Shown here in pieces: positions 12,501-43,842 of a stretch of 46,190 nt of DNA. The notes under the pieces are model-generated. The model was not told the origin of the DNA, did no database searches, and worked only from the letters and a program-made list of their open reading frames with translations. The stretch lies in contig JAQTNJ010000002.1 of NCBI GenBank assembly GCA_028713955.1, positions 1 to 46,190 on the forward strand. The letters are read 5' to 3'. Every line of letters starts with the position of its first letter. Position 1 is the first letter of the stretch. This DNA is from Syntrophorhabdaceae bacterium (lineage in GTDB: Bacteria; Desulfobacterota; Syntrophorhabdia; Syntrophorhabdales; Syntrophorhabdaceae). A program made the translations under genes and the position numbers.

Positions 12501-12599
12501 AAATACGGATACCCGCCAGACAAGCAGAAGAAGGCGACTGAAACCGTCCTCGAACAGGCAACAATGATTGCGAAAGACTGGGCAGAAAAGGCAGCTTAA
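9519..12599 (+). CDS. hsdR: Type I restriction endonuclease motor subunit
   Basis: A 1026-residue HsdR. N-terminal PD-(D/E)xK nuclease: [20 protein letters not shown] (about 146-165). SF2 motor: Walker A HSQGSGKS (about 304-311), DEAH box (about 408-411), GFTGTP (about 434) and later helicase motifs around DMWLTGFD and QAIARVNR. The C-terminal helical region contacts HsdM/HsdS. Length is normal and no lesion is visible. A GAGGTC ribosome site precedes the ATG. Its place downstream of the ABC-3C genes puts both systems on one transcript. Confidence 0.97.
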
Positions 12600-22425: not shown

Positions 22426-22443
22426 AAAGACCTCACTGTCTTT
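22426..22443. terminator. Short hairpin between convergent genes
   Basis: AAAGAC (22426-22431) and GTCTTT (22438-22443) form a 6-bp stem that overlaps the stop codon of the minus-strand HerA gene. It could be a weak bidirectional terminator. Confidence 0.3.
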
Positions 22444-24460
22444 AAATATAATCCGAAATCCCTTCCCTCATAAAACTCCGAATATCCAGGATAACGACAT
22501 TGCCGTTTTTGCCGGTGTTAGTTTTGTTCCAGGCTGCTTGAATACTTTTTGAGATGGCTTTGTTTAGGCCAAGCGAGAAGACCTTATCGTAGCCTGCCTC
22601 AAGGTTCTTGTTGATATTTTCAACCGCGTCTGATTTGCCGGTCTCGATTTCAATGGCAATTAAGCTACCTTCATGAGTAGCGTCTATATCAACAGCCTGG
22701 CCCTGGCCAAGCGGCTTCTCGATTTCAACTTGATAGCCCATTTGCTTGCAGTGCTCGGCTATCCGGTATTTCCAGTATTCATGCGCAGGCCCTCCTTCCC
22801 GCTGGTCAGGGATCTCTATTCCGCTTTTTCGAAGAACATTTTTGCCTTCTTTGCTTAGCTGAAGATATCTGACCTTTCCTTCAGGCGTAGTGATTATTGA
22901 AGAAGATAGAAGGCCTGACGCAACAACATCCTTTATGATTTTGTTCCCATGCCGCACGCTTAGACCAAGTCTTTCATATCTCTCTGCTATTCCCGATATA
23001 GGATAATGAATAACGTCTTCGAGTAGTCGTCTCTCATCCTCTCTGATTTCACTATTCTTATAATATTGTTTTTCAATATTACCTTGAGGCGGAATAAGTG
23101 GAATCTCTTCGCATATTACTGGAAGGAGTGGAATCTCTTCGTTCAGGGCGGAATCACCTAGAATTTGCCTTTTTATCTGTTCATCGCTGACCAATCCTTT
23201 CTTGAGTTTTAAGGAGGGGAACCTGACAAGAAAAGGCTTTGGCCATCGGCCTTGCAGCTTTACAATGGCCTCTCCTACTTCGAGTTTTCCAAGATACGCC
23301 CTCTCGCTTATCTCAAGAAGCATAGCCTCGGCTATTGTGTTGACATCTCGCGCGTGCTTGAGGTTCATGGCAATGGTGCAATAAGTGTTTCCAAGGCTTG
23401 GGATGGAAATGAGTGATGGGTGCTGGTCGATCAGCGTTATGGACTCGCCCAATTCCCGGATCTCCCTTAAGATAATATCCATTATTGTCTCTTTAGAACC
23501 CTTGCCTTTGAGAAGGATATGGTGGGCCTCCTCGATGATGATGGCGTGCTTGAAGATTTCCCTCTCTGGCTCTTGCAGCCGAAAATGATGTATCCAGAGC
23601 AGGAGAGATTCTATGAGGAACGTTTTGTCATTGTTGGACAGGGCGTCAAGCTCAAGAATGACGTTCTGCTTGAGAAGCTCTTCAATCGGCATTGGATTGG
23701 CTGAATTGATGATATTCCCGGTCTCGCCATAGCATAATGTGCCAACTGCCCTGAGCGTTGAATCCATCCATTGTGCCTCGCGTCCTTTTGCCTTGTACTT
23801 TTCCAGCCATGTTTTGACATCAAGCATGGTCGGCATGGTAGATGTGTTTTCATATACGCTGTCCATTGCCCTTTGGAGCAGATAGGCCACACCCTCTCCT
23901 AGCCAATAAACATGGCACATGATCTCTATCAATTTTTTGAGCCAGGTGTTGGGGCTTGTCCCTTTTGGCGGAATAAGCGGATTGAAGAAAAAGGGCGATA
24001 TATTTCTTCCAGGTGTAAAGACAAGTAAATTATTTGTTCCAGGCAGGCTGAGCAGGTCCCGGTAGTTTCTTTTCCAGTCAAATATCAGGAACGGCTTTTG
24101 CTTCTCGAAAAGCTGGTTAACAATCAGGAACCCGACATTGGTTTTGCCGCTGCCGGTCCTACCGAATATGCCGATGTGCTGTATCCATTCATCTTCCCTC
24201 AGCCCGAACTGGTGAAGGAGTTTTTGGTTGTAGGAAACAATAGCCAGCGGATAGTCGCCGGCAGACAGCTCCTCAAGGGGCGGAACAAGCAGTATCTCCT
24301 TTCTCTCAAGGTCGTCCCGAAGATATTTTGCGGCAAGGCCATAAACTATGCCCTCTATCTCCTTGCGGTTTTCAGGATTGATCTGGTATTCCAGCCAGAG
24401 CAGGTCTATTTTGGAGCCGAGGATCGGCCTGAGCTTCCTCAGAATATTTTCTATATCCAT
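22442..24460 (-). CDS. HerA-like ATPase with winged helix and nuclease-like tail
   Basis: A 672-residue protein. The HerA/DUF87 motor has Walker A GRTGSGKT (about 101-108), LIFDWKRNY, Walker B HAIIIEEAHH (about 303-312) and the sensor-like region SITLIDQHPS. A winged-helix segment (about 470-560) is followed by a restriction-endonuclease-like domain with QAVDIDATHEGS and IAIEIETGKS (about 585-606). HerA motors are hexameric DNA translocases. Same architecture and clear similarity to the protein at 39632-41722. It may pump or process DNA of the element, or act in defence. No NurA partner is present. Confidence 0.88.
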   Translation of the reverse strand: MDIENILRKLRPILGSKIDLLWLEYQINPENRKEIEGIVYGLAAKYLRDDLERKEILLVPPLEELSAGDYPLAIVSYNQKLLHQFGLREDEWIQHIGIFGRTGSGKTNVGFLIVNQLFEKQKPFLIFDWKRNYRDLLSLPGTNNLLVFTPGRNISPFFFNPLIPPKGTSPNTWLKKLIEIMCHVYWLGEGVAYLLQRAMDSVYENTSTMPTMLDVKTWLEKYKAKGREAQWMDSTLRAVGTLCYGETGNIINSANPMPIEELLKQNVILELDALSNNDKTFLIESLLLWIHHFRLQEPEREIFKHAIIIEEAHHILLKGKGSKETIMDIILREIRELGESITLIDQHPSLISIPSLGNTYCTIAMNLKHARDVNTIAEAMLLEISERAYLGKLEVGEAIVKLQGRWPKPFLVRFPSLKLKKGLVSDEQIKRQILGDSALNEEIPLLPVICEEIPLIPPQGNIEKQYYKNSEIREDERRLLEDVIHYPISGIAERYERLGLSVRHGNKIIKDVVASGLLSSSIITTPEGKVRYLQLSKEGKNVLRKSGIEIPDQREGGPAHEYWKYRIAEHCKQMGYQVEIEKPLGQGQAVDIDATHEGSLIAIEIETGKSDAVENINKNLEAGYDKVFSLGLNKAISKSIQAAWNKTNTGKNGNVVILDIRSFMREGISDYI

Positions 24461-24534: not shown

Positions 24535-25050
24535 TTATTTCTGCTTATTCTTGTTTTTTGTAAGTTTATAATTTTCATATAGAAATTCTGATATTTTATT
24601 CATGTCCTCATCTAATTGTATTTTGAACTCTGGTTCGTGTACGATATCGTTTTCATCTTTAAATGGTATCTTTATAAATTGCTTAGAAATAAAGCTTTCA
24701 AAAATACCAAATGTAAGTGACCATTCAAAACCTTTTGTGGATTGTGATTTAATATCGTTAATGATTAGTTTTGACAACGGTATATCGAATTTTGTATTTT
24801 TGCCTTCAAATATCAACTTATTTGTTCTTCCAATTAAAAAACCTTCTTCTTTGTTAAAATATTTCTTATGACCACTAAGATATTCAACACGTATCCGGAA
24901 TTTTTCTGCTAAGAATTCATCCGCATCATTTTGATTTTTAAATTTCTTTAGTATATTGTCACAATATATACACTTACCACTCATGTTATACTGCACTTCT
25001 GGATTTTTCTTTTTACAAAATCCACAAATAATAAGTTCTTTTTCTGTCAT
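24535..25050 (-). CDS. Zinc-ribbon protein with PH-like domain
   Basis: A 171-residue protein. An N-terminal zinc ribbon is formed by CGFCKKKN and CIYCDN (about residues 9-33). The rest is a beta-rich segment with a terminal helix (about 55-160, for example YFNKEEGFLIGRTNKLIFEG), resembling a bacterial PH-like fold. No signal peptide or membrane helix. Function unknown. It lies upstream of the HerA gene on the same strand, 74 bp away, and lacks a clear Shine-Dalgarno sequence. Confidence 0.55.
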   Translation of the reverse strand: MTEKELIICGFCKKKNPEVQYNMSGKCIYCDNILKKFKNQNDADEFLAEKFRIRVEYLSGHKKYFNKEEGFLIGRTNKLIFEGKNTKFDIPLSKLIINDIKSQSTKGFEWSLTFGIFESFISKQFIKIPFKDENDIVHEPEFKIQLDEDMNKISEFLYENYKLTKNKNKQK

Positions 25051-25123: not shown

Positions 25124-25480
25124 TTAATCTTCATGTTTTATTTCGCCTCTATTTATTCGCCTAGCGGTGTTGTAAGCATCGTATATGCCGTAAAGCCATA
25201 GAATTAACCAAAGGAATATTCCGATTATGACAATAGTAAGCACGATACATACTATCAATGCGACAATCATCAGCAGGCCTTTCCCGATTTGACCATTGTA
25301 TATTTGACCAAGCCCGGGAATGAAGAACGACAGTATGGCGGCGAGACCGGAATTCTTAACTTCTTTGTGTGATCTTTCTCGCCTTCCAGAGACCCTTACC
25401 CCGCATTTAGGGCATATCTCAGCCTTTGTGTCTATTTTCTTTCCACAGTTGGAACAAAAACGGGTTTTCCGATCTGCCAT
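25124..25480 (-). CDS. TM2-domain protein with zinc ribbon
   Basis: A 118-residue protein. The N-terminal zinc ribbon FCSNCGKK...CPKCG is followed by a basic linker and a TM2 domain: SFFIPGLGQIYNGQIGKGL, then two membrane helices ending in WLYGIYDAYNTA. TM2 proteins are small inner-membrane proteins of unclear function. The start lacks a Shine-Dalgarno sequence, and TTTTTAAAG lies about 30 bp upstream. Confidence 0.85.
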   Translation of the reverse strand: MADRKTRFCSNCGKKIDTKAEICPKCGVRVSGRRERSHKEVKNSGLAAILSFFIPGLGQIYNGQIGKGLLMIVALIVCIVLTIVIIGIFLWLILWLYGIYDAYNTARRINRGEIKHED

Positions 25481-28934: not shown

Positions 28935-31127
28935 TTACTCTTTCTTCTCATCTTTACTGGCCATACTCAAGGCATCGCTTGCAGCTTTTTTTGCGTCAAT
29001 ATAATCAAGCTTTATCAAGATAGGTCGTTCACTTCTAATCGCTTTGCCATAAGCAATAGCCTCCAAGAAACGAAGATTGGGAATGCTCTGGACATGCACT
29101 GAGCTATAAACATTTGCCAAGTAGTCCAAGCTGGTTTTGTCAACTAAGGAAAATGTTATATATGTATTGCATTGAGACAGGATTGATTTACTCACAAGGG
29201 CAGTACGTTGTGAAACCATAAGAAGTCCAACACCGTATTTGCGGCCTTGTAGCGCTATTTGCGATATGCGGCCAACGATCCACTGTGTATCATAGTCGAA
29301 ACCCGATCCTACAGTCTCAGGTATTATTGTATGCGCCTCTTCTAAAACAATTAAAACTCTGCGGGCACGACGGTTATTGCGTGCCCATTCCATAATACTT
29401 GACAGGTAGAGTTCTGTCGCTCTAAGAGTAGCTTTGGTATTTGTAATTTCGGGAAGTTCGAAGATGCCCAAGGAGCTTCCCTCTGAAGATAAAAAAGTTT
29501 CAACATTCTTTTTAACTGGCCCCTTGATACTATCAACGAATTCTTTGAGATTCTTTTTCTCCTGTGGCGCTCCATATGTTCCAGTTTCCACGGCAAAAAA
29601 TTTCTGGTCCAATTCTTCTGCATGCTTCTGATCAAGTCCCAAAAGTTGGGGGTTGCTATCTGCCAATCTAGCCTTATACTCGTTAGTAAAATCTACGCAA
29701 AATACTTTGGTATCCAGCGACAATGCTTGTCGAATAATATCAAAAGCCAGTTCGGTCTTTCCTGTACCTGTTACCCCTAGAATAGCGGTGTGATATTCCA
29801 GTATCTCAAAGAAGCTAGCCCTAACTGCTATCTGAGATCCTGGAACTTTACCAATAATAAACTCCTCATCTCTTGGTGATGTAATATCAAATGTAAAGGG
29901 TTCTTTGGGTATAAACACTGGTGAATTCATTGCGGGCAGCCATCCATACTTCACGAATCCCTTTGCGGAATCGAGGTAGCCTAGCTGAACTGCCGATACG
30001 ATATGTTTGCCACGAGGGTTTCTTCCAAAGCTTTCCTCGGCAGTTTTTGCATCCAGTATTTGATAGAATACTATTTGTCTATCTTGCCGACAGAAAATGA
30101 GTATACCTTCTTCTATCTGAATATTCGAGGAAACCTCGAACTTGATCATCGAAATAGTAGAGTCCTCCACGACAAAACCGACTAGGCTTGCTCCTCCATC
30201 AAATCCGCAAAGATCGTTGATAATTCTTGTAGCGTCCAGATTTTCAACTTGTCGGTATACTTTACCTGGCATAAAACCTTCGATGGGGGACTTTGTAGTA
30301 TCGTGACACAAGCCCGTGCCCACTAGTTGTGATTCTTCAATATGACTGAATAAACAAAGAACATTTACTTGGTTGCCATTTGGCAGACATGCCACGGCTA
30401 CAGTATTCGGTTGCCATTTTTCTGAAGAGGTCAAGGCAACGCGGATAATGTTGGGATTGTCCACGCGCGTTATATCCCCGAGGACTTCAGAACCATGAGA
30501 GGTCCTAGCGACTCCTTTGAGTTCTTCTATCAAACGAAGGGTAAGTTCCACGGGCTTTATTGTGACCACAAATACCCACCCAAAAAACAGCCACAATTGT
30601 TGTACCGGGGCTTGCTGATAGTATCCAAGTATGCTTATCAAGGCCGGGGGAGTGAATATTAGTTCACCCTTTCCGAAAATGTCACTGATTCTATAACCTA
30701 GGATGGCTGCTTGTTTTTTATGGGGATGCTCAGTGCCGTCCACATCAATAAAAACTATTGCAAGAATTGCACAGATGCCGGTAGCTACTGCTACTCCGAC
30801 CATACTCCACCGAAAGATATCTAGTGGAATTTTAAGCATCTGTATTCCAGCAAAGTCCACTGTGCTTAAGAGAAGCGCCGAGGTAACAGCGTTAACCAAT
30901 GCATTACGCGGTGGACGAAACCAAGGAGCGGACAATAAAGTAAGAAAGGCAAATCCAAGGCCACTCAAAAGCCATAAACGCTTACCTGAATCGGAAGGAA
31001 AAGCCTCACCAGTTACGAATACGCTTAACGCTATAAATATACAGATATTTAAGGCGAGGGCTGCTAAACGTTGCTTTTGTGTAAGGTATTTTAGTCCTTT
31101 GAATTCCTCATCTGACATACGAATCAC
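28935..31127 (-). CDS. Membrane-anchored HerA-like ATPase
   Basis: A 730-residue protein. The N-terminal ~130 residues contain about four membrane helices, unusual for HerA. A beta-rich HAS-barrel-like region follows, then the DUF87 motor with Walker A GVTGTGKTE (about 450-458), VFCVDFTNEY, Walker B RVLIVLEEAH (about 589-598) and the LLMVSQRTALV sensor. No nuclease tail is seen. It may be a membrane-docked DNA translocase working with the HEPN/ART genes downstream on the same strand (54 bp from the ATL-like gene), or a conjugation-type pump. The first interpretation is inference. Confidence 0.85.
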   Translation of the reverse strand: MIRMSDEEFKGLKYLTQKQRLAALALNICIFIALSVFVTGEAFPSDSGKRLWLLSGLGFAFLTLLSAPWFRPPRNALVNAVTSALLLSTVDFAGIQMLKIPLDIFRWSMVGVAVATGICAILAIVFIDVDGTEHPHKKQAAILGYRISDIFGKGELIFTPPALISILGYYQQAPVQQLWLFFGWVFVVTIKPVELTLRLIEELKGVARTSHGSEVLGDITRVDNPNIIRVALTSSEKWQPNTVAVACLPNGNQVNVLCLFSHIEESQLVGTGLCHDTTKSPIEGFMPGKVYRQVENLDATRIINDLCGFDGGASLVGFVVEDSTISMIKFEVSSNIQIEEGILIFCRQDRQIVFYQILDAKTAEESFGRNPRGKHIVSAVQLGYLDSAKGFVKYGWLPAMNSPVFIPKEPFTFDITSPRDEEFIIGKVPGSQIAVRASFFEILEYHTAILGVTGTGKTELAFDIIRQALSLDTKVFCVDFTNEYKARLADSNPQLLGLDQKHAEELDQKFFAVETGTYGAPQEKKNLKEFVDSIKGPVKKNVETFLSSEGSSLGIFELPEITNTKATLRATELYLSSIMEWARNNRRARRVLIVLEEAHTIIPETVGSGFDYDTQWIVGRISQIALQGRKYGVGLLMVSQRTALVSKSILSQCNTYITFSLVDKTSLDYLANVYSSVHVQSIPNLRFLEAIAYGKAIRSERPILIKLDYIDAKKAASDALSMASKDEKKE

Positions 31128-32045: not shown

Positions 32046-33896
32046 ATGGCTATCTACCTCGTTCGTGGTTCTGAGCAAAAAATTAAAGATATTATTTTGT
32101 CTTTTATAAAGCAAGAAGGCCTTGAATTAGATGATTCTAGATTCCTTAGCAGCCAAGATCAAGGTAACGATAATATACCTCTTTTCTCCGCATCAACACC
32201 TTTTGTTTCAGAAAAAAAATCTCGCTATTATTTTGAATGGCATTCTTCTCCTATTGAATTTTACTCAAAAGTCGAAATGAAAGTTAAGCTTGGCAAGAAA
32301 GGAAAAGCGGCAATATCTTGGAGCCTTATACTTGGTATGTTTTTTCTGGTTCTCTTATTTCTATTTGCTTTCAAAGGACCCGGATCAGTCACTGGAAGAT
32401 CAGAAAAAATATTATTGTCGTTCATCGTGTTGTTCACGGGTTTATTTTCCTTAGCTTTTCTATTGAATTTCATATATGGACTCTACTGGCATGGGCATAA
32501 AATTAGTGATTTTGAAAATAATTTCTTAACAATTCTTAATAATGAATTATTAACTGAAAAGATTTCATATGGGAATGTCCTCTCCAAAACTCATCATACA
32601 ATAATGGCTTTAATGGTAGCGGCCATTTTTTATATTTTATTGCACATATTCGGGTTTAAATTATTGGCATTTCTTGTCACCGTTTTTTTGATGAAATTTA
32701 TCGTTTCTTGGTTCATCAGATTATTTGCTAGAGAAGATTTTAATTCAAAATGGAAGCATGCTATGGTGACGCTGGACGACATGTGGTCTTGTTGGCAATG
32801 TGGAATTTTATTTCTAATTGTCATTTTAATATCTTGTAAACCTATTCTTCATTTACACGTTCAGTTAATCCAAAATCTTGCATTTATTTTAATTTTGGGT
32901 ATATTAGGTGCATTCAATGTTTTGCCTTTCGTGCTTATCAATTTTGTTACAAAATGGCATCAGCTTTTAGGAAAAAATCAGGAGGTATTTCCTAGACCGC
33001 CATCTATAACGTCAATAACAACAAGAGAAGATTTGATCGGTAAGCTGTTGGTTTTAGCACAAATCCCGTTTTCGCTTGTGCTCCATTGGTTTGCAATGCT
33101 GGTGTCTATAGATGCTTTTTATTACCTAAAAGAAAACGACATAATTTTTTTCAACTTTTCTGAACAAGCCTTTAATCTAGTCCTATATGTATCTTTTAAT
33201 TCAAAGGTCATTGCTGGCATCATATTATTTGTTCTGGCATTGCCCTCAATAATTGTTTTATTGAGCATGTTTACATACATGATAGTGTCAATGAAGGAGT
33301 GTGTAAGATTAATAACTATTCCTGAGTATTCATCAATTCCTAATCAGGTGAAGAATTTTATAAAAGAAACAGCAGACTTTTTAAAAGTAAGCGTTCCTCG
33401 CGTTCTTGTCGATGAGAAAACAGAGATTCCGATAAAAAGCTCTCTCATATTTCCTTTTTCCAGCCGCCCAGCAATTATAATCAACGCTAGAATTCTCAAA
33501 GAGCTTTCCAATGAGGAATTACAAACTGTGATTGCCCACGAATTTTATCACATAAAATACAATCTCTATCCGCTTTTCATTGCCAATTTGGCTTCATGGC
33601 TTTGCTTGTTCCCTAACAACTACTTTACTTTGTACTTTGACTTTGTCAAAATGGAATTTGAGGCTGACAGGTTTGCAATGGATATAACAAAAAACAGAAC
33701 ATATCTTATTTCGGCGCTGATCAAAAACAATGAGGCTGGCTTTATAAATGATAGTGTGAAACAATTGAGTTCTATAAACAAACTAAAAATATTTATGCAG
33801 TTTTATTTTGGGAATGCGCTTCTTGGATATGTTTATCCTCGGCCCATTGAAAGGCTTAATGAAATTAACAGGTATGCATTCAACCAATCGGATTGA
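32046..33896 (+). CDS. Membrane M48-type metalloprotease
   Basis: A 616-residue polytopic membrane protein. A soluble N-terminal ~80 residues are followed by about eight hydrophobic helices (about 90-420), then a C-terminal M48-like protease domain with ELQTVIAHEFYHIKYNL (HEFYH, about 497-501) and EFEADRFAMD, whose Glu supplies the third zinc ligand (about 536). The long membrane region before the protease resembles BlaR1/MecR1-type sensors more than HtpX. It ends 15 bp before a winged-helix regulator, so a proteolytic signal-transduction pair is plausible. No ligand domain is recognised. Confidence 0.82.
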   Translation: MAIYLVRGSEQKIKDIILSFIKQEGLELDDSRFLSSQDQGNDNIPLFSASTPFVSEKKSRYYFEWHSSPIEFYSKVEMKVKLGKKGKAAISWSLILGMFFLVLLFLFAFKGPGSVTGRSEKILLSFIVLFTGLFSLAFLLNFIYGLYWHGHKISDFENNFLTILNNELLTEKISYGNVLSKTHHTIMALMVAAIFYILLHIFGFKLLAFLVTVFLMKFIVSWFIRLFAREDFNSKWKHAMVTLDDMWSCWQCGILFLIVILISCKPILHLHVQLIQNLAFILILGILGAFNVLPFVLINFVTKWHQLLGKNQEVFPRPPSITSITTREDLIGKLLVLAQIPFSLVLHWFAMLVSIDAFYYLKENDIIFFNFSEQAFNLVLYVSFNSKVIAGIILFVLALPSIIVLLSMFTYMIVSMKECVRLITIPEYSSIPNQVKNFIKETADFLKVSVPRVLVDEKTEIPIKSSLIFPFSSRPAIIINARILKELSNEELQTVIAHEFYHIKYNLYPLFIANLASWLCLFPNNYFTLYFDFVKMEFEADRFAMDITKNRTYLISALIKNNEAGFINDSVKQLSSINKLKIFMQFYFGNALLGYVYPRPIERLNEINRYAFNQSD

Positions 33897-33911: not shown

Positions 33912-34820
33912 ATGACATTGAAGAATTTAAATAATATCGACTTAAAAGCAATAACGAAATCAATCGCAAAAACAATCATTGAAAGAGAATTTCCAGAAGA
34001 ACTGCCATTCTTCGACGTGATCTGGGAGATTCTCGAAAAACGTCATGCGGATAACGAGGGACAAAAAGGATTGAATATTCAAGAAGGGCCTATCCCTGAT
34101 TTGGGGTTTGCGTCTCCAGCAGGAAAATTACTCATTTCCAATGGAATGAAGATAGTCCTTGATGAAGTGTTGCCCAATATTATATTTCGTGAGTACCAGT
34201 CTAAGAAAGAGTGGGTAGAGGGCATAAAGGATCTCACACTTAAAGTTGCCAATGAGTATAACATTCACCCAGCTGTGCCGATTGCATTGGCAGAACATTT
34301 GCCTCATTTGCTGATTGATGCATACCTAGGAATACAAAATAATGAAATCTTCGAGATTCTGATCGGCATTGGTTCAAAATTCAAAAAACTCTCTGGTGAT
34401 AAAACTCTGGTTAAAAAACTGCGCAAGAGAAAGGAACATTATAGCATATGGATAGATAAGGATAAGGACGAGGCCAAGATATTTGGGGAAAACCCAGAGG
34501 ATGGCATTTCAGATGCCCCTTTCAAATTGTTAGTCCTGCTATTGACTAATATGGGCAGAGTCTGTACTTATGAACTTATCCTGAGAGATGTCTGGAAGGA
34601 GCCCATTAGCATCAAAGAGGGAATGGATAAACCAAATTCAGATGACCCAGATTGGATTAAGCAGCGTGACAGGATCATGAAAGCAATCGGAGCAATAGAA
34701 CAGTCATCAGAAACTGTAAAAGAGAGTATCGAAAGAATTAAGGGTCGCGGAATCAAGCTACATTACCGGAAATGGAAATATTGCATCATCGACTTCAAAG
34801 GTTTTCTGCCTTATCAGTGA
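33912..34820 (+). CDS. OmpR-type winged-helix regulator candidate
   Basis: A 302-residue protein. The N-terminal ~180 residues are helical and unassigned. The C-terminal ~110 residues look like an OmpR-type DNA-binding domain: DAPFKLLVLLLTNMGRVCTYE, then LILRDVWKE, a recognition-helix region with RDRIMKAIGAIEQ, and the terminal hairpin GRGIKLHY-RKWKYCII. No receiver domain is present. It is cotranscribed with the metalloprotease and could be its substrate or output regulator. Its 3' end overlaps the convergent gene by 26 bp. Confidence 0.6.
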   Translation: MTLKNLNNIDLKAITKSIAKTIIEREFPEELPFFDVIWEILEKRHADNEGQKGLNIQEGPIPDLGFASPAGKLLISNGMKIVLDEVLPNIIFREYQSKKEWVEGIKDLTLKVANEYNIHPAVPIALAEHLPHLLIDAYLGIQNNEIFEILIGIGSKFKKLSGDKTLVKKLRKRKEHYSIWIDKDKDEAKIFGENPEDGISDAPFKLLVLLLTNMGRVCTYELILRDVWKEPISIKEGMDKPNSDDPDWIKQRDRIMKAIGAIEQSSETVKESIERIKGRGIKLHYRKWKYCIIDFKGFLPYQ

Positions 34821-35727: not shown

Positions 35728-35856
35728 ATGAACGCGACGAAGAGCAAAGGCAAGAAGATGGCAAAGGCAGGATTAAAGAAAACATCCAGCAGGAAGCATA
35801 GCGGGCGCTTAGGCATCTCTCCAATCCCGGCGATGTTCTGCCGGATCGGCTGCTAG
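35728..35856 (+). CDS. Small basic peptide, first gene of Ub-like operon
   Basis: A 42-residue peptide, very rich in Lys, Ser and Arg in the first 30 residues and ending in MFCRIGC. The ribosome site AAAAGGAGGT is close to perfect, which argues for real translation. It might be a lysine-rich target, a DNA-binding peptide or a leader controlling the operon. No homologue recognised. It ends 19 bp before the next small gene. Confidence 0.5.
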   Translation: MNATKSKGKKMAKAGLKKTSSRKHSGRLGISPIPAMFCRIGC

Positions 35857-35875
35857 CCAGAAAGGAGGACAAGTC

Positions 35876-36034
35876 ATGAAAAAACGTTATAGAAGCACAG
35901 GCTCTGGAAGAATTTACAGAGAGCTAAAGGAGATAAAAAAAGAAATTTATCTAATCAGGGTATTACAAAGGGGCCCTCAGGCAGCTCCTGGCAGACCTTT
36001 CACGCCAAAATCCAGGTACAAGAAAAAGTTTTAA
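35876..36034 (+). CDS. Small basic peptide, second gene of Ub-like operon
   Basis: A 52-residue peptide with a helical, highly charged N-terminal half (ELKEIKKEIYLIRVLQ) and a Pro/Arg/Lys-rich end (RPFTPKSRYKKKF). It is preceded by GAAAGGAGGAC, a strong ribosome site, and followed after 11 bp by the Ubl-E2 gene. Like its neighbour it is unknown; the lysine content would suit a conjugation target, which is speculation. Confidence 0.5.
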   Translation: MKKRYRSTGSGRIYRELKEIKKEIYLIRVLQRGPQAAPGRPFTPKSRYKKKF

Positions 36035-36045
36035 AGGAGGAGGTC

Positions 36046-36687
36046 ATGAAAAAACAGGAAATTGTTGAAATGACCAGGATAGGAAGCCGCTGGCTACCAG
36101 AGGTTCCTGAGACAGGTAAACTTCCAAAAATAATAACAGGAGGTAATGCCATGACAACAGTAGTGAAGTTCATTAATGTGCGTGTTCCAGGGACAGACAG
36201 AGACATTGCCAGCCACGACCTGGCTGTCCGGCCCGGCACCCGCGCCTGCGATGTACTCCGGGAAATCGGCCTGCAGGGGTACCAGCTCAGCAGAGGAGGC
36301 GAAAAGGCATTCAGGCCAGAAACCGAGCTTTTCGGGGTTGTTGCGGATGGAGAAATCCTCTTTGCCTCACCTGCGGATATGAGCGCCGGGAAAATTTATC
36401 GAGAAGTGCCAAGGGGCATCGCGCCCCTTATGGAATCCCGGGGCTGGAGGAAAACAAGCGACGGCTGGGAAGGGTTTTTTCAAACAAAGCAGAGAAGCTA
36501 TCCTGGATATATTCGGGTTGGGGCAGATGGTTCAAGGCAGTATTTTGTGATGAACCCTCCGGACAACATCCCGCATTATGCCTGCCTGCATCCTTGCGGC
36601 AATAACTGGTTTATCATTCATTGGAATCGCGCGCCACAGGATCTAAACAGCTTTATCTTGTTCATTGAAGACTGGCTCTCTGCATGA
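36046..36687 (+). CDS. Ubiquitin-like domain fused to E2-like domain
   Basis: 213 residues from ATG 36046, or 178 from the in-frame ATG 36151; both have excellent ribosome sites (AAAGGAGGAGGT and ACAGGAGGT). In 178 numbering, residues 3-74 look like a beta-grasp Ubl: strand VVKFINVRV, turn, strand, helix TRACDVLREIG, then ELFGVVADGEILFAS. Residues 83-178 resemble an E2/RWD-type domain: RGWRKTSDGWEGFF, YPGYIRVGADG, NIPHYACLHPCGNNWFIIHW with candidate catalytic Cys145 (or Cys149), and the last helix DLNSFILFIEDWL. The fusion lacks a free Gly-Gly end. The JAB and E1 genes follow directly. Confidence 0.72.
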   Translation: MKKQEIVEMTRIGSRWLPEVPETGKLPKIITGGNAMTTVVKFINVRVPGTDRDIASHDLAVRPGTRACDVLREIGLQGYQLSRGGEKAFRPETELFGVVADGEILFASPADMSAGKIYREVPRGIAPLMESRGWRKTSDGWEGFFQTKQRSYPGYIRVGADGSRQYFVMNPPDNIPHYACLHPCGNNWFIIHWNRAPQDLNSFILFIEDWLSA

Positions 36688-36700
36688 GGAGGGATGACCA

Positions 36701-37357
36701 ATGGATACAAACTTGATAAATGTTGCGATACAACGAGCTTTTCTGGAGAAGCAGCTCCGGACCGATACAGAAGGCATTCTAGAGCACATGCTCGGTCACG
36801 ACATGCAGTCAGCAAGGCTCCGCTACGAGAAGGCATGCTTGCTTTCTAGTGTTCACCAGGATCTCTGCCACATTTTGGGTGATCCTGCTCCAGAGTATAT
36901 TGTGAGTTCTCTATTTCTTGTCCAATCTCACAGGGTCCTGGCCAGCTGTCCTGATGAGAACATGCTCATAGCCACTGGTAAGGATTTTGGCCCGGTGAAA
37001 ATCATCGACACCCAGGTTAGTGTTGAGGTCTCAGAGCAGTCAAAGGTCTTTGTGAGGGCAGATTCTGACTCTCTTGGTAAAGCTCTCTGCTCGTTGGATG
37101 ACTATGGCCATAAGCTGCTCGCATGGTTCCATAGCCACCCTGGTACCGGCCCTGCCTCTGTTAATCCATCAGCTACAGACCTTGATACCCAGAACAGGCT
37201 GGAGCGAGGCGGATATCCTGTTGTCGGCGGAATTTTTTCCCGTGATGGCTATGTCAGGTTTTTCTCAATCAAAAACCGGTTTTCCTCTATCCGGATTTAC
37301 GGGAAACTTGTGGAGAAAAAAGATGAGACCACCTTTCATATCAAGAAAGCCTATTAG
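36701..37357 (+). CDS. JAB/JAMM metalloprotease (deubiquitinase-like)
   Basis: A 218-residue protein. The C-terminal JAB domain carries the complete JAMM zinc motif: H144-S-H146-P, then PASVNPSATD with S157 and D160. The N-terminal ~65 residues are helical. JAMM peptidases cleave isopeptide bonds or process ubiquitin-like precursors; here it could release the Ubl or reverse conjugation. GGAGGG precedes the ATG, 13 bp after the Ubl-E2 stop. The last 35 bp overlap the E1 start. Confidence 0.9.
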   Translation: MDTNLINVAIQRAFLEKQLRTDTEGILEHMLGHDMQSARLRYEKACLLSSVHQDLCHILGDPAPEYIVSSLFLVQSHRVLASCPDENMLIATGKDFGPVKIIDTQVSVEVSEQSKVFVRADSDSLGKALCSLDDYGHKLLAWFHSHPGTGPASVNPSATDLDTQNRLERGGYPVVGGIFSRDGYVRFFSIKNRFSSIRIYGKLVEKKDETTFHIKKAY

Positions 37358-38108
37358 GATTGAGACCCCTGGAGTAGCGCCTGCCCATGGCATAAGCGCC
37401 ACTTGCAGGCAGGAAATGGTCCCTGGCATAACCCAAGGCCTGCTCGCAGGTGCCAGTGTTGTGATGGTCGGAGCAGGTGCCCTCGGTGGGGAGATAAGCG
37501 AAGCCCTCATTAGGATGGGCATCGGCAGGCTCACCATACTGGACGGAGATGTCGTGCACATCAGCAACCTCGCGCGCCAGAAATTCTTTGTGAGAGACCT
37601 GGAAAAAAACAAGGCAATCAGGATATGCAAAAATCTTGCAGGCCAGGCAACAGCTATGTCTGTTCTGGTCGGAATTCCCATGAGCTTTGAGGAAGCTGTT
37701 GCTAGCGGCCAGGAACTTGGCTGCAGCGTTTCCGTGGTCGCTGTTGACAACGACGCAGCCCGGGCCTATGCCTCAAAATTCTTCAGGGAACGCAATACTC
37801 CTCTGGTTATAACAGGTGTAAGCAAAGACGCAGATAGAGGCTATGTCTTTATCCAGGATGCCACTGGGAGCCCGTGCATTGCCTGCCTTATGCCCGAAGT
37901 GGTGACAAACAAAGAAATCAATGCCTGCGTGCCTGGCGTCATCGATATCTCGAAGATCATTTCTGGCTATGCCTGCTTTGGCGTTGTAAGCCTCATCACA
38001 GGGCGAAGGGCGCACTGGAACTACCGGCAGCTCTCAATATCTGGGGCTATCCCGGAAGTCATCACGATGATTGCAAAAGACCCTAATTGTGAACTCTGCG
38101 GAGGATAA
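37323..38108 (+). CDS. E1-like ThiF/MoeB-family adenylyltransferase
   Basis: 261 residues from ATG 37323, chosen because GGAG lies 7 bases upstream and longer forms would overlap the JAB domain. The Rossmann loop VGAGALGG (about 49-56), LDGDVVHISNLARQ (D74, D76, Arg85), and the Zn pairs C185-x2-C188 and C256-x2-C259 are intact. Cys202 in NACVPGV is a candidate catalytic cysteine. It should adenylate the Ubl C-terminus with ATP and pass it to the E2-like Cys. The protein ends right after the second CxxC, with no extra ubiquitin-fold domain. Confidence 0.92.
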   Translation: MRPPFISRKPIRIETPGVAPAHGISATCRQEMVPGITQGLLAGASVVMVGAGALGGEISEALIRMGIGRLTILDGDVVHISNLARQKFFVRDLEKNKAIRICKNLAGQATAMSVLVGIPMSFEEAVASGQELGCSVSVVAVDNDAARAYASKFFRERNTPLVITGVSKDADRGYVFIQDATGSPCIACLMPEVVTNKEINACVPGVIDISKIISGYACFGVVSLITGRRAHWNYRQLSISGAIPEVITMIAKDPNCELCGG

Positions 38109-38109
38109 A

Positions 38110-38499
38110 ATGTACACAAATACCGAAAACCAGAAATACCCTCCACCGCCGCCTGGAGGCGGAGGTGCAAGCAGCAATGCAGCAAGGCTGCAGCCGCCCA
38201 TATCGGATGCTGCCCCTATTTCGCCCAATCAGTCCTGGGCAGAGAAAAAGTGTTGGCTAACAATAGCAAGAGGCCTGTGGGTGCTCGGCATCGCCGTTGT
38301 CTATTTGCTTCGTGGTCTCGGTTGTGCCGCATTGGGTGCTGTTTGCGGCGGCATGGCCGGGCTTATTATCGCGGCCCCGATAGCCTTGTTCTCGTTCTTG
38401 AGTGGAAGCGGCACAGCAGATGCAGAGCTTGCGTTCAAGGCCTGCTCAACGATAGGAGCAGGAATCGGGTTTCTCTGTGGCTTGATCCCTTGGGATTGA
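38110..38499 (+). CDS. Membrane protein with YPPPPPGGGG N-terminus
   Basis: 129 residues from ATG 38110 (GGAGG before it). A cytoplasmic Pro/Gly-rich N-terminus (KYPPPPPGGGG) precedes two to three hydrophobic helices (about 55-90 and 105-126) rich in Gly and Ala. Paralogous to the next gene in motif and helix pattern (LRGLG...GGMAG). It starts one base after the E1 stop. The proline-rich tail could be a docking site for a partner; that is inference. Confidence 0.75.
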   Translation: MYTNTENQKYPPPPPGGGGASSNAARLQPPISDAAPISPNQSWAEKKCWLTIARGLWVLGIAVVYLLRGLGCAALGAVCGGMAGLIIAAPIALFSFLSGSGTADAELAFKACSTIGAGIGFLCGLIPWD

Positions 38500-38538
38500 G
38501 CAGGTCAGAGAAACCAACTAAATTTTATGGAGGTTAAG

Positions 38539-38979
38539 ATGCGCCAATATGTGGGAGATTCTCAATATCCGCCACCTCCTTCAGGAAGGACGGAGCGACC
38601 CCAAAATATTCCAGGTGCCACTGCCGGACGCCAGCATCATTCTCGTCAGGAAATTATGAGGGGATGGAATCCCATGCAGAAAATCCTGTTCGACATCTGC
38701 CGAATCCTTGTCCTTTTATTTGCAGGCTTCATATATGCAATCAGGGGTGTCATTTACGGCGGCATGGCCGGAATTCTCATCAGCCTGCATTATCTAATCT
38801 ACGTGTGGCTCGCAGGCGGCGACCCGTGGGCAACAGCTCAAGTCTTTAAGGCATCTCTCATCATCTCAGCCATCAGCGGCTATCTTTACCCTTTTGTCGT
38901 GTATTGGAAATTGGACTTTCCCGGCTCACTTTTGTCCAGCATCACAATAAAAATGCTGAGGGCAAAAATATTCTCGTGA
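38539..38979 (+). CDS. Membrane protein with YPPPPSG N-terminus (paralogue)
   Basis: 146 residues from ATG 38539, which has GGAGGT 5 bases upstream; an in-frame ATG at 38527 is less well placed. N-terminal QYPPPPSGRTERP, a basic linker, then two helical hairpins (about 50-85 and 100-125) containing IRGVIYGGMAG, which matches the same segment of the previous protein. Tandem duplication within the operon is likely. Function unknown. Confidence 0.75.
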   Translation: MRQYVGDSQYPPPPSGRTERPQNIPGATAGRQHHSRQEIMRGWNPMQKILFDICRILVLLFAGFIYAIRGVIYGGMAGILISLHYLIYVWLAGGDPWATAQVFKASLIISAISGYLYPFVVYWKLDFPGSLLSSITIKMLRAKIFS

Positions 38980-39027
38980 TGACGCGAATGAATGCGTTTT
39001 GAGTAGGCTCAAGCATAGGAGGGGAAA

Positions 39028-39222
39028 ATGAATGCTAATAAGGGCATAAGCGAGTTCTTGGATTCGGTAAGCCGTGTGACTATGCGTCTCTCTGTGATCA
39101 CGGCGAACCTCATTAAGATCGCGGCCACAATAGTTGCTTTTTATCTGATCCTGCGGCTGGCCGCGGGAATTTTCGATTTCGGGGCCGCCTTGTTCAAAAC
39201 ACTCCCGCAATGGCCTCGTTAG
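39028..39222 (+). CDS. Small single-pass membrane protein
   Basis: A predicted 64-residue protein with an amphipathic start, one long hydrophobic region (about 22-50) and a short tail ending in LPQWPR. AGGAGGGG precedes the ATG. It lies between the paralogous membrane proteins and the zinc protein, in the same operon. It might anchor the zinc protein or the ATPase; no family recognised. Confidence 0.6.
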   Translation: MNANKGISEFLDSVSRVTMRLSVITANLIKIAATIVAFYLILRLAAGIFDFGAALFKTLPQWPR

Positions 39223-39231
39223 GAGGGCGTT

Positions 39232-39621
39232 ATGCCAGACAGACTTAAAGGAATGGTTGCTGAGGCGTTGCGGAGAATCAGGGTCACGACACGAATCGAA
39301 AGCCAGACCCTTGGCGGCTCTGCTGAAGAAAATGGTCGCATCACCCTTCATGGCACCCAGACCACTATAGACGACCAGGGCATACTCACCGTCGTAGAGA
39401 CCCGCGACTACGTGCTTGGTTGCGGCCATCTCGCAAAGGGTCGCGAGAATGTGGCCGGGATGTGCGGCTGCGGCAGGCTTTGCTGCAACGCCTGCCTCTC
39501 CTTCTGTGCAGAAGACGGCGCGCCCTTGTGCCCGAAGCACACCTATCGGCACAACGGGAGAACGCTCTGCGAAGACCACTACCTCTTGGAGAAAGCAAAA
39601 GAAGAATTTCCTTGGTTCTAA
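39232..39621 (+). CDS. Treble-clef/RING-like zinc protein
   Basis: A 129-residue protein. The N-terminal ~60 residues are helix plus beta strands. The second half is a compact cysteine/histidine array: C64-x-H66, C78-x-C80, C84/C85-x2-C88, C92, C100-x2-H103, then C113-x2-H116. This spacing fits two zinc sites of a RING, B-box or binuclear treble-clef type. In an operon with Ubl, E2, E1 and JAB genes it is the obvious candidate for an E3-like specificity factor. A plain zinc-binding adaptor of the ATPase is the alternative. AGGAGGG precedes the ATG. Confidence 0.7.
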   Translation: MPDRLKGMVAEALRRIRVTTRIESQTLGGSAEENGRITLHGTQTTIDDQGILTVVETRDYVLGCGHLAKGRENVAGMCGCGRLCCNACLSFCAEDGAPLCPKHTYRHNGRTLCEDHYLLEKAKEEFPWF

Positions 39622-39631
39622 AGGAGATGCA

Positions 39632-41722
39632 ATGAATATAGACGATCTTGTCAGGCTGGTTCAGGCAGGCAACAGCACAGAAGATCCCGGCGTCCTCGGC
39701 GCTCTGTTGGGTCTTATTCTTGAAAATCGCTCCTGTTCCAAAGAGGACAAGCTTCAACAGATACAGGTTGCGGATTTCCAGCAAATGATGCTCCTGGAGG
39801 GCATAGAGAATATTCTTGCGCCAGATCCATTTGTCCGTCTGACAGCGGACATTCCCGGAGATGTCATTCTCGGGCGGGCAATCCAGACAGGCCACTTCGT
39901 AGCCATCTATGAGCATGAAGCAGTCCAGCACATTTTGATCCTCGCCCGAAGCGGAGGCGGAAAAACAACCCTGATTCTCGCTATTACAATTCCCTTAATG
40001 GAAAGGGGAAAGAAGGTTCTCTATTTCGACCAGAAGCGCGACTTCATCCACCTGGCCCGGAGGGGAGTGTGGGTATTCAGGGTCGGCAAGGGCGACCTCA
40101 AATGGAATCCGCTTGAGCCGCCCGAGCGTCTGTCACCGAGGACCTGGGCGGGTATCATCTCCTACGTCTTCTCTCAAAGCTACGGATTTATCGGCGGCAT
40201 GGCGACCGAGAACTATCTTCTCATCTCATTAATAAATCTTTACGAAATGTTCGAGGCGCAAGGTGCATACCCCTGTCCCCTCGATCTGGCAGAATATCTC
40301 CGGGCAAGGCCGGTTCCCCGCATGTCACCCATCTATCAGTCCTATGAGAGGCTGATGAATCGGTTGGCCGCGATTAACGAAGCCATCGGCGACACAGTGA
40401 ACTGCTCAAGCGGGTTCAAGCTGTCCCAGCTGCTGGGCAATAATGTTGTTCTCGACCTTGCGGGCATGAAGCCTGACATGCAGGCGTTTCTGACCGAAGC
40501 CCTGCTAACCGCCATGCTCATGCAGAGAATCGCCTCTGGCGAGCGGCATGGCCTGGAGAACATTCTGGTGTTCGACGAAGCGAAAAGGCTACTTCCCCGC
40601 TACAGGGAAACCTACCAGCAGGGGATATCGAACATGTCCATCCTGATTAGCCAGGTCCGTGAATTCGGGGCGGGAATTATTGCTGCAGAGATGGAGCCGG
40701 AGCTGCTCGCAAACTCGTTGTCATCAAATACCTACACCAGAGTCTGCATGTCGTTAAGCAATGGCAAAGATATACAGGACGCTTCATTGTCCCTGGGGCT
40801 CTCCAGAGAGCAGCAGCAGGTCATCTATCAGCTCAATCCAGGCGAGGCCATTGTCCGGCTTGCTGGCCGCTGTCCTGACCCGCTACTTATCAGGGTTGAC
40901 CCATACGAAGAGGATAAGTCAATCAGCGACAACGAGATCGAGCGAAGAATGGCTCCGGTGCTCAGGAGCCTCGAATGGACCCCGAGGGCGCACATCGGTG
41001 CTGGCAGAGTTGCTCGCGGTGCTGCTGGCGACCGCAAGAGCAACGGAGAAGATGCAGGAGAAAGAGCAGAGGCCGAAGAAAGGCCGAAGAAAGAAAAGAA
41101 CGGTTCAGTGTGGCAGGGCATCTCAAAGGATGGGATTGACCTGCTAATAGATATTGCCAACGACCCATTCATTGGGGTGGCCCAGAGAAGTTCAAAGCTG
41201 GGGCTGTCAGCTTCAAAAGCGGATTCGCTGCACCATCAGCTTATTAGTGCGGGCCTGGCCGAAAAGGTCGTGATTAACACGCATCGTCGGGGTGGTTTGG
41301 TCACGTTGCTCCGTGTGACTGACGATGGATATTCGTTACTGGAAAGCCTGAAAGTGAAAGTCAATAAGCCCCCGGGAAAGGGTAATTTCACTCACGCTTA
41401 CTTTCAGGACGTAATATTCCGTTGGGCCGTTGCTCAAGGCTACAAAGCAGAAATCGAGGCATTTCTGGACGGGAAGGCCGTGGATGTGGCTGTTGAGATG
41501 AACGGCAGGCGCTGCGCGTTCGAGGTCGTCAATCAGAAGTGGGAAAAAGAAATTATTAATTTTTCCAAAGATGTTTTTGTCGGCTACGATGAAGTGATTT
41601 TTTGCTGTGCGGATCGCGAAATAATAAAAAAGCTCAGTGAGAAAATTACAGCGCTGTTTGGCGAAGAATCAAAGGGCAAGGTCAGCTTTCGCTTGCTTGC
41701 GTCGTTTGCGGAGGGACTGTAA
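39632..41722 (+). CDS. HerA-like ATPase with winged helix and nuclease-like tail
   Basis: 696 residues from ATG 39632 (AAAGGAGA before it; an upstream extension would overlap the zinc gene in another frame). The HerA/VirB4-like motor has Walker A RSGGGKTT (about 106-113), LYFDQKRDF, Walker B ILVFDEAKRLL (about 311-321) and NMSILISQVRE. A low-complexity charged linker (about 455-490), a winged helix (about 495-575) and a nuclease-like domain with GKAVDVAVEM and CAFEVVNQKW (about 608-636) follow. The last motif lacks a clear ExK lysine. It is a homologue of the protein at 22442-24460. Confidence 0.88.
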   Translation: MNIDDLVRLVQAGNSTEDPGVLGALLGLILENRSCSKEDKLQQIQVADFQQMMLLEGIENILAPDPFVRLTADIPGDVILGRAIQTGHFVAIYEHEAVQHILILARSGGGKTTLILAITIPLMERGKKVLYFDQKRDFIHLARRGVWVFRVGKGDLKWNPLEPPERLSPRTWAGIISYVFSQSYGFIGGMATENYLLISLINLYEMFEAQGAYPCPLDLAEYLRARPVPRMSPIYQSYERLMNRLAAINEAIGDTVNCSSGFKLSQLLGNNVVLDLAGMKPDMQAFLTEALLTAMLMQRIASGERHGLENILVFDEAKRLLPRYRETYQQGISNMSILISQVREFGAGIIAAEMEPELLANSLSSNTYTRVCMSLSNGKDIQDASLSLGLSREQQQVIYQLNPGEAIVRLAGRCPDPLLIRVDPYEEDKSISDNEIERRMAPVLRSLEWTPRAHIGAGRVARGAAGDRKSNGEDAGERAEAEERPKKEKNGSVWQGISKDGIDLLIDIANDPFIGVAQRSSKLGLSASKADSLHHQLISAGLAEKVVINTHRRGGLVTLLRVTDDGYSLLESLKVKVNKPPGKGNFTHAYFQDVIFRWAVAQGYKAEIEAFLDGKAVDVAVEMNGRRCAFEVVNQKWEKEIINFSKDVFVGYDEVIFCCADREIIKKLSEKITALFGEESKGKVSFRLLASFAEGL

Positions 41723-42302: not shown

Positions 42303-42596
42303 ATGGCGGCTAACAGACAAGATGATGATGGTTTAACACACCCGGAAGATGAACCGCCGCCGTCTGTCAATTCCATAGAAAAAAGAAAAGCGCAGAACAA
42401 AAATCCCAGAGGTCCTCACAAGAGACTCTATACGATACCGGAAGCAGCGCATTATTTGGGCAGGACCGTAAATGCTCTGCGTGAAATGATTTGGGCTGGG
42501 AAACTACCAATTGTGCGTGATGGCAAAAGAATATTGCTCGACCAAAGCGATATGGACTCCTACATAGAAAGACACAAGACTGTATATGACTTTTGA
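42303..42596 (+). CDS. Excisionase-like HTH protein
   Basis: A 97-residue protein. The C-terminal half is a MerR-type helix-turn-helix of the Xis/HTH_17 kind: [20 protein letters not shown], then [24 protein letters not shown]. Such proteins bend DNA at attachment sites and direct the integrase to excision. The N-terminal 40 residues are a charged, disordered extension. It stops 10 bp before the integrase ATG, and integrase frame codons overlap its end, indicating coupled expression. Confidence 0.85.
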
Positions 42597-42606
42597 GGTT
42601 TATTCC

Positions 42607-43692
42607 ATGGGAAGCATTTACAAACGAGGCGACACATATTGGATTAAATTTTATAGAGACGGCAAAAATTATAGAGAAAGTACTCGCTCCAGTAAGGAAT
42701 CAAAAGCGAAACGGCTCCTGAAGCTTCGAGAGGGGCAGATTGAAGAAGGGCAATTCCCGGGCTTGAAGTTAGAAAAAACCACCTTCGATGAGCTTGCAAA
42801 AGATTATCTCACGGATTATCAAATAAACGGACGAAAATCACTGTTTCGGGCAGACATTTGTGTCAATCACTTAAAAGAGTACTTTGAAGGATATAGAGCT
42901 AATAACGTCACAACGCAGTCGGTTAAAGAGTATATCTCGATGAGGCAAAAACAAGGTGCCAAGAACGGCACTATCAACAGAGAGCTTACAGCGTTGAAAA
43001 GAATGTTTCGGTTGGGAGAACAAAACACACCACAAAAGGTAATCCACGTCCCGTACATACCAAAACTGAAAGAGACAAACATTAGAACGGGCTATTTCGA
43101 ATATGAAGACTACGTGAGGCTACGAGACAATTTGCCGGATTATCTCAAGCCTGTTTTCACGATGGCCTATTTTACAGGGATGAGGAAATCAGAGATTATC
43201 AACTTGACTTGGGATAACGTCAACATCTTTGAGAAAAAAATTACTCTTGAAGCCGGGACCACCAAGAACGAGGAGGCGCGGGTGATTTATCTCGTCGGTG
43301 ATTTGTATGAGTCTATCCTAGATCAAAAACGAAATAATGAGACCAGCTATCCTGACTGCCCCTATGTATTTTCAAGGGATGGTGAAAAAATCAAAGATTT
43401 CCGTAAATCCTGGGATAAAGCCTGTGAAAAAACAGGATTGCAAGGAAAGCTGTTTCATGATTGCCGCAGGACAGCGGTCAGGAATATGGTCCGCGCAGGC
43501 ATACCTGAAAAAGTAGCGATGAAGATATCGGGACACAAAACCCGCTCTGTTTTTGACAGATACAACATCATCAACGAGGAGGACCTCAGGAAGGCGTGCG
43601 AGCTTGTCTCTCAGTTGTATCAAGAAAATGTTGAAATTCACTCACGGGCACAAAATGGGCACAATTTGGGCACAATCGTCAAATTGAAGTAA
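42607..43692 (+). CDS. Tyrosine recombinase (integrase)
   Basis: 361 residues from ATG 42607; [16 protein letters not shown] is a typical phage-integrase start, so the ATG at 42586 is less likely. An N-terminal arm-binding domain is followed by a SAM-like core-binding domain (about 58-150) and the catalytic domain with R193 (GMRKSE), K220, H284-x2-R287 (HDCRR), H310 (SGHKT) and nucleophile Y319 (DRYN). All catalytic residues are intact. Its end lies 55 bp from the 3' end of the selC tRNA gene, which must be its attachment site. Confidence 0.95.
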
Positions 43693-43746
43693 TTTGTCTG
43701 TACTTATTTCTGTACACTGTGAGCTGTAAGTTATTGATATTATTAA

Positions 43747-43776
43747 TGGCGGAAGTGCATGGGAATCGAACCCACC
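43747..43776. other. Likely attachment site (3' end of selC)
   Basis: The 3' end of the tRNA gene (CCA end, acceptor strand and T arm) on the integrase-proximal side. Tyrosine integrases recombine at such ends and leave a direct repeat at the far end of the element. I did not find a second copy of GGAAGTGCATGGG in the window, so the far end should lie to the left. Exact limits of the core are not known. Confidence 0.6.
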
Positions 43777-43842
43777 TACCAGCTCGTCACCGGTACACTG
43801 GTTTTGAAGACCAGGAGACCCACCAGGCGCCTCGGCACTTCC
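43747..43842 (-). tRNA. selC: tRNA-Sec (anticodon TCA)
   Basis: 96 nt with encoded CCA (43747-43749). The 8-bp acceptor GGAAGTGC/GCACTTCC, a 5-bp T stem around GGTTCGATTCC, a long extra arm and the anticodon stem CTGGT/ACCAG with loop CTTCAAA give anticodon TCA (plus-strand TGA at 43805-43807). The 8+5 geometry is bacterial. It inserts selenocysteine at UGA with SelA/SelB. selC is a classic integration target for islands, as here. Confidence 0.97.

Follow-up and report, generated by a model that had tools for sequence, protein, structure and literature searches.

A predicted ubiquitin-like conjugation cassette beside a HerA-class DNA translocase at the integrase end of a genomic island in a Syntrophorhabdaceae bacterium

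The DNA studied here, called the window, is the stretch of 46,190 nucleotides at positions 1 to 46,190 of contig JAQTNJ010000002.1 (assembly GCA_028713955.1) of a Syntrophorhabdaceae bacterium. Between 36046 and 41722 it encodes a fusion of a ubiquitin-like protein (Ubl) with an E2-like domain, a JAMM peptidase, an E1-like enzyme, three small membrane proteins, a treble-clef zinc protein and a HerA ATPase. All these genes are on the + strand and free of internal stops, and over 35728-41722 the intergenic spacing ranges from -35 to +48 bp. A preliminary description made from the letters had given each gene a strong ribosome site. An AGGAG-type site is indeed present before nearly every gene of the operon, the exception being the E1 gene, which overlaps the JAMM gene and has a weak GGAG only. 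Because the same gene set is found in the same order at other loci, the arrangement is not due to chance. The genes are as follows.

35728-35856, + strand: small basic open reading frame of 42 amino acids, a possible operon leader, with a strong ribosome site and the next reading frame 19 bp on
35876-36034, + strand: small basic open reading frame of 52 amino acids with a strong ribosome site
36046-36687, + strand: Ubl-E2 fusion, with the Ubl at about residues 36-115 and the E2-like domain at about residues 127-213; likely true start 36151
36701-37357, + strand: JAMM/JAB metallopeptidase (PF14464) with invariant ligands, its profile leading to RPN11, BRCC36 and CSN5
37323-38108, + strand: E1-like protein with a single adenylation domain of ThiF/MoeB size (PF00899), its profile leading to UBA1 and UBA6
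38110-38499, + strand: small membrane protein a, with a Pro-rich N terminus and two hydrophobic segments
38539-38979, + strand: small membrane protein b, with a Pro-rich N terminus and a hydrophobic segment at 49-67
39028-39222, + strand: small membrane protein c, with one hydrophobic segment
39232-39621, + strand: binuclear treble-clef zinc protein (RING/B-box/FYVE-like by profile and model), a candidate E3 or adaptor
39632-41722, + strand: HerA-class ATPase (PADLOC mad8, HerA structures) with a winged helix-turn-helix (wHTH)-like region and a nuclease-like tail at about 41363-41719

Membrane proteins a and b are paralogues (phmmer E 4e-6), and Pfam and NCBIfam scans of the reading frame at 35876-36034 gave no match. 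The gene boundaries first proposed were revised in part. The Ubl-E2 gene probably starts at 36151, an ATG after AGGAGG, rather than at 36046, because its relatives begin at the first strand of the Ubl and the AlphaFold confidence is low for residues 1-35. The E1 gene was set at 37323-38108 and the HerA gene at 39632-41722.

In the AlphaFold model of the whole fusion, which has a mean predicted local distance difference test score (pLDDT) of 82, residues 37-112 adopt the ubiquitin fold with a pLDDT above 90 across most of the domain. This domain aligns with ubiquitin, NEDD8 and the Caldiarchaeum ubiquitin at Z 8.7-9.6, mostly at about 2 Å, and the beta-grasp fold that had been proposed for it was thereby recovered. 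Its tail carries Gly115, a residue kept in the Ubls of all relatives (11/11) and followed either by variable residues or by the E2 domain; stand-alone Ubls finish in ...VGK, ...VGKK or ...VGW. A glycine with a variable extension is the pattern expected of a conjugable Ubl precursor that is matured by a peptidase. The Ubl profile also gave a weak match to SAMP2 (E 0.1). Residues 127-213, which form the second domain, are modelled with confidence as strands followed by a helix, and among them H177 and C180 (HxxC) are invariant in 13/13 E2 rows. By its position, this motif and the company of its genes, the domain can be read as E2-like. Alignment of the domain by hhalign with four eukaryotic E2s and with one bacterial 6A-MBL-type E2 gave no signal. 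The fold-search lists for the fusion model were filled by ubiquitin-like rows, so that the missing E2 rows carry no weight there. No convincing Pfam family was found for the Ubl and E2 domains among 19 proteins scanned. In a phylum-wide search Prok-E2_A led to one 6A-MBL-type locus and Prok-E2_B to nothing.

The two other enzymes of the cassette are more readily placed, and here the preliminary assignments held. The JAMM protein reaches 25.1 bits with Prok-JAB (PF14464, cut-off 25) and has E86, H144, H146, S157 and D160 as invariant residues; a profile built from its relatives matches BRCC36 (2e-5), RPN11 (6e-5) and also CSN5. The E1-like protein, a single-domain protein of 261 amino acids, scores 87.7 bits with ThiF (PF00899), and the profile of its relatives matches UBA1/UBA6, at best with 3e-24. 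Its C202 is invariant and is a candidate for the catalytic cysteine, while the CxxC pairs 185/188 and 256/259 are nearly invariant. Judged by their sequences, the active sites of the adenylation domain and of the peptidase are complete.

For the Cys-rich protein encoded upstream of HerA, a binuclear treble clef is the most likely structure. The profile of this protein matches the B-box of TRIM28 (5e-4) and, weakly, FYVE and RING chains, and its AlphaFold model is FYVE-like (Z 6.4 over 52 residues; mean pLDDT 66, higher in the zinc part). It may thus be considered a candidate RING-like E3 or adaptor. The HerA protein has mad8 of PADLOC as its best curated match (E=4e-21) and is weak for HerA/DUF87 in Pfam, and its profile matches HerA structures at 5e-25 and 1e-24. 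It possesses a Walker A variant, ARSGGGKT, and a Walker B motif, ILVFDE, consistent with the core of a ring-forming HerA-class translocase. Two residues of its tail, a D and an E, are invariant, and a further E upstream of them is conserved. This recalls PD-(D/E)xK nucleases, but a consistent K is absent, and a profile search of the PDB with this tail gave no match. A nuclease activity of the tail can be put forward on the basis of these residues. Both the zinc protein and the HerA with its nuclease-like tail had been named in the preliminary description, and the matches given above agree with it.

The window contains two more genes of the HerA type. One of them, at 22442-24460 (- strand), encodes a HerA that ends in the same nuclease-like tail; it has no Ubl cassette and adjoins two zinc-ribbon-like genes (24535-25050 and 25124-25480). 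A third HerA-like ATPase at 28935-31127 (- strand; PADLOC HerA 3e-27) has a long N-terminal half.

Conservation of the gene set in other genomes had been named beforehand as the observation whose absence would speak against the operon. A genome-wide scan with the JAB alignment yielded 12 loci and IMG/VR one (L021), which together with the window makes 14; their gene content was determined by six-frame profile search. They are labelled as Acidobacteria, Acetothermia, Omnitrophota, Verrucomicrobia, Victivallaceae, Brocadia and Deltaproteobacteria and span no fewer than six phylum-level groups. The order E2-JAB-E1 was found in 14/14 loci, with the Ubl immediately upstream in 11/14. Ubl and E2 are fused in the window, L010, L014, L018 and L019 and are separate genes in the other six loci that have both. 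Within the phylum of the window the cassette occurs in 3/395 genomes, and two congeners searched were without it. At the limits used, plasmid collections matched neither the Ubl-E2 fusion nor the E1 and contained nothing close to the operon at the DNA level, and phage collections gave no E1 match. The viral contigs of IMG/VR held one real locus, L021, and one distant match to E1 only (L027).

A DNA translocase is encoded next to the cassette in 12/14 loci: a HerA in seven and a VirD4/TraG-type coupling ATPase in five. The HerA belongs to the family of the operon in the window, L009, L010, L014, L017, L018 and L019, and the zinc protein is recognisable in the window and in five further loci (L010, L014, L017, L018 and L019). 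Genes for a transmembrane protein, the zinc protein, HerA and a tail lie upstream of Ubl-E2-JAB-E1 in L010, L017 and L018, where the stand-alone tail genes are homologous to the tail of the window HerA; L019 is arranged likewise, with the tail not found there. The zinc protein and HerA are downstream of E1 in the window, with the membrane genes between, and in L014, while in L009 a transmembrane protein and HerA follow E1. Among the loci of the VirD4/TraG type, L012 and L013 contain Replic_Relax, of which L016 has a clear orthologue. The VirD4-type ATPase of L015 is accompanied by a relaxase and NikA, and the VirD4-like ATPase of L020 (4458-7640) is fused to the same nuclease-like tail and to an excisionase-type HTH_17. 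In a tree of concatenated E2-JAB-E1, L019 (HerA) groups with L015 (VirD4) as its sister at 100% support, deeper nodes being poorly resolved. This implies at least one replacement of the translocase in a lineage that kept its Ubl core. Comparison by hhalign of the tail and wHTH region of HerA with Replic_Relax was not significant, and a shared descent of the two is not claimed.

Some of these loci have peculiarities of their own. The HerA gene of L019 is frame-broken at 6579-8257, either as a pseudogene or by an assembly error, next to an intact Ubl cassette. L020 has a second E2-like paralogue downstream of E1 (3371-3733), and in L013 two DNA methyltransferase-like genes (6926-9336) stand between JAB and E1. 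The cassette of L021 (4864-7036) is carried by a 70-kb contig classed as viral; HerA or VirD4 was not found within the flank read.

Downstream of HerA the window continues with recombination functions.

42303-42596, + strand: excisionase-like HTH_17 protein (PF12728, E 7e-12)
42586-43692, + strand: tyrosine integrase (PF00589, E 1e-19)
43746-43809, no strand assigned: attachment site of the island, a 64-bp perfect direct repeat in the 3' part of the tRNA-SeC gene, with an exact copy elsewhere

The tRNA-SeC gene itself (43747-43842, - strand) lies beyond the integrase. The presence of the repeat in the 3' part of this tRNA gene, together with the integrase, indicates that the island of the window sits in selC. 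The exact copy of the repeat is on contig C135 (2847-2910), where ARAGORN finds no tRNA, and 1689-2825 of that contig reads as another tyrosine integrase that ends 21 bp before the copy. The island is therefore probably in tandem with a second element. Recombinases of the tyrosine or serine type, confirmed by Pfam, are encoded downstream on the same strand in the window, L009, L010, L012, L013, L017, L018 and L020, directly or nearly adjacent in seven of these eight. In five (the window, L010, L012, L017 and L020) a tRNA gene follows directly behind the recombinase. A xis-like gene is separated from E1 by just a few bases in L017 and overlaps it by 4 bp in L019. As the recombinase families and the tRNAs (SeC, Asn, Glu, Thr) vary, it can be concluded that the cassette recurs at the same position in different elements. 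Reading the window as a strict conjugative transfer locus was considered and rejected for now, as no relaxase or type IV secretion system (T4SS) was seen nearby.

The enzyme set of Ubl-E2, E1, JAB and a RING-like protein is already known. As described previously, FtsH-ternary conflict systems hold a tri-ligase Ubl system with a Ubl-E2 fusion, a JAB, an E1 and a prokaryotic RING, in which the JAB was proposed to release the Ubl from the fusion (eLife 2020, PMC7159879). The operon of the window resembles it in the fusion of the Ubl with an E2-like domain, the separate JAB and E1 and a zinc protein that may be of RING type. The FtsH-ternary systems, however, have EAD1 on the Ubl, vWA-MoxR, FtsH and a caspase-like effector, instead of which a HerA/VirD4 translocase, membrane proteins and a recombinase are found here; vWA, MoxR, FtsH and EAD1 were all absent among the operon proteins and the scanned neighbours. 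BilABCD shares the stand-alone set of Ubl, E2, JAB and E1 and the cutting of the Ubl tail by a deubiquitinase, which is predicted for the window. BilA, though, consists of two Ubl domains, and in BilD a Cys domain accompanies one inactive and one active adenylation domain (PMC11354881), whereas the window has a single Ubl, a single-domain E1 of 261 amino acids and an added translocase. Type II CBASS (cyclic-oligonucleotide-based antiphage signalling system) follows a similar logic of E1/E2 and JAB (Cap2/Cap3) in anti-phage conjugation. There a single protein, Cap2, contains both the E1 and the E2 domain, and it is the cyclase that Cap2 conjugates (PMC10097602), in contrast to the dedicated Ubl, the separate E1 and the lack of a CD-NTase in the present operon; against E1-E2 models the E1 of the window matches in the ThiF part only.

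Operon types with Ubl, E2, JAB and E1, some of them on mobile elements, were defined by Iyer 2006 (PMC1779556), including type 6d with an alpha-helical protein and JAB-N and type 6e with a polyUbl and an inactive E2 (PMC1779556). Both types and the PRTRC cassettes have a small Ubl, an E2-like protein, a JAB and an E1 in common with the window, where PRTRC_ThiF (TIGR03736) reached 31.7 bits against a cut-off of 144.75 and no other PRTRC model of NCBIfam matched. HerA-nuclease defence systems (DUF4297-HerA, HerA-Sir2, and mad8 of MADS) likewise pair a HerA-class ATPase with a nuclease or effector; in the present case the nuclease-like domain either forms a C-terminal tail or is encoded by an adjoining gene, and a Ubl cascade is part of the operon. 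In the literature searched for Ubl together with HerA, VirD4 or relaxase no description was found; Burroughs et al. 2011 (Mol BioSyst), which was outside this search, may cover related operons. Of the combination for which the preliminary description knew no precedent, the enzyme set is known (PMC7159879). What is new is that the Ubl and E2 belong to uncatalogued families and that the set is coupled to HerA/VirD4 translocases at the integrase end of islands; this coupling was not found described, and the preliminary description had not noticed it.

The recurrence of the cassette next to DNA translocases and integrases in bacteria that are not related makes it probable that tagging governs how these islands move DNA or defend against it. 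In the model favoured here, to which a probability of about one half is given, a mobile Ubl-conjugation cassette is wired to a membrane-tied DNA translocase, with reversible tagging as a switch that serves the movement of the element's DNA. The JAMM peptidase would cut after the conserved tail glycine and free the Ubl from its C-terminal extension, which is the E2 in the window. The E1, with C202 as candidate cysteine, would adenylate the glycine and hand the Ubl to C180 of the E2. The treble-clef protein could help in targeting as E3 or adaptor, and the JAMM protein might also strip the tag. The most likely target would be a membrane-tied complex of HerA, including its wHTH region and nuclease-like tail, with the small membrane proteins, which the tag would switch on or off. 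This machine would most likely serve the DNA of the element, in transfer, mobilisation or the exclusion of competing DNA. The DNA-movement role is preferred because the cassette lies at the recombinase end of islands, with xis and int linked to it, and because HerA is swapped for conjugation-type, coupling-protein-like ATPases. We infer the E2 activity, the E3 role, the nuclease activity, the target, the direction of control and the purpose from these features. A broader form of the proposal, in which the Ubl cascade is the dedicated switch of a mobilisation or exclusion apparatus across many phyla and interchangeable HerA/VirD4 pumps are the tagged machine, is advanced more tentatively.

Several observations weigh against the proposed switch of DNA movement. 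No sequence link could be detected between the E2 domain and the known E2s with which it was compared, and the relatives come mostly from metagenome assemblies. With no relation by hhalign between the HerA tail and Replic_Relax, the two versions of the translocase are analogous at best. Relaxase, T4SS and origin of transfer were not identified near the HerA of the window. Furthermore, the nearest curated match of this HerA, mad8, belongs to a defence system, and the island also holds a type I restriction-modification (R-M) system, a PADLOC candidate and other HerA genes, which fits defence as well.

The last two points lead to an anti-phage or anti-plasmid function, in which infection or foreign DNA would trigger Ubl conjugation and the HerA-nuclease complex, assembled or released in this way, would degrade DNA or kill the cell, the operon being cargo of a defence island. 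Such a function is possible, if somewhat doubtful. In addition to the match to mad8, the PADLOC HerA models match the HerA; HerA and nuclease complexes of the DUF4297-HerA kind are proven dsDNA-cleaving abortive-infection systems (PMC11291478); and Ubl conjugation is proven in CBASS (PMC10097602). The type I R-M system, PDC-M68B and the two further HerA genes of the island point in the same direction, as does the patchy spread within the phylum. However, the steady same-strand place before recombinases and the xis-like overlap are unusual for free cargo, a conjugation-type coupling protein is present in five loci, with relaxase and NikA in one, and no defence protein was seen to be shared across the neighbourhoods.

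It is improbable that in a crowded island the HerA, zinc and membrane genes are mere neighbours of an independent Ubl cassette, with no functional link to it. In the window a HerA with the same tail (22466-24352) does stand apart from any Ubl cassette, as does another one in L017, and the two halves are found in either order. Yet the transmembrane, zinc and HerA genes are contiguous with the cassette in L010, L017, L018 and L019, the zinc and HerA genes follow E1 in L014 and a transmembrane gene and HerA do so in L009, and a translocase is the neighbour in 12/14 loci from at least six phylum-level groups. Very improbable is a role of the Ubl as a ThiS/MoaD-type sulfur carrier, with a sulfur compound instead of protein conjugates as the product of the cassette, since the ThiF/MoeB size of the single-domain E1 and the weak match to SAMP2 are outweighed by an E2-like protein with an invariant Cys, a JAMM peptidase, an extended Ubl tail that needs cleavage, best E1 matches that are ubiquitin E1s, and the absence of a rhodanese, cysteine synthase or cofactor gene from the operon and the recurrent neighbours seen.

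If the model of a tag-controlled DNA translocase is correct, bacterial Ubl signalling would extend beyond abortive-infection operons to membrane-bound machines that move DNA, a mode of control undescribed for mobile elements in the literature searched. The E1-E2-Ubl-JAMM sets are compact and can be separated genetically, and their Ubl and E2 families are not in Pfam; they offer material for tracing the origins of ubiquitin systems. The function of the tag is directly testable, because the gene of its likely target, an ATPase of the HerA or VirD4 type, adjoins the cassette.

Elsewhere in the window, the type I R-M operon (HsdM, HsdS and HsdR) occupies 1926-12599 on the + strand and includes a DUF2326 protein that matches the PADLOC candidate PDC-M68B (E 3e-194). 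At 32046-33896 a multi-pass membrane protein with an M48-type zinc peptidase domain is encoded beside a wHTH regulator-like gene (33912-34820).

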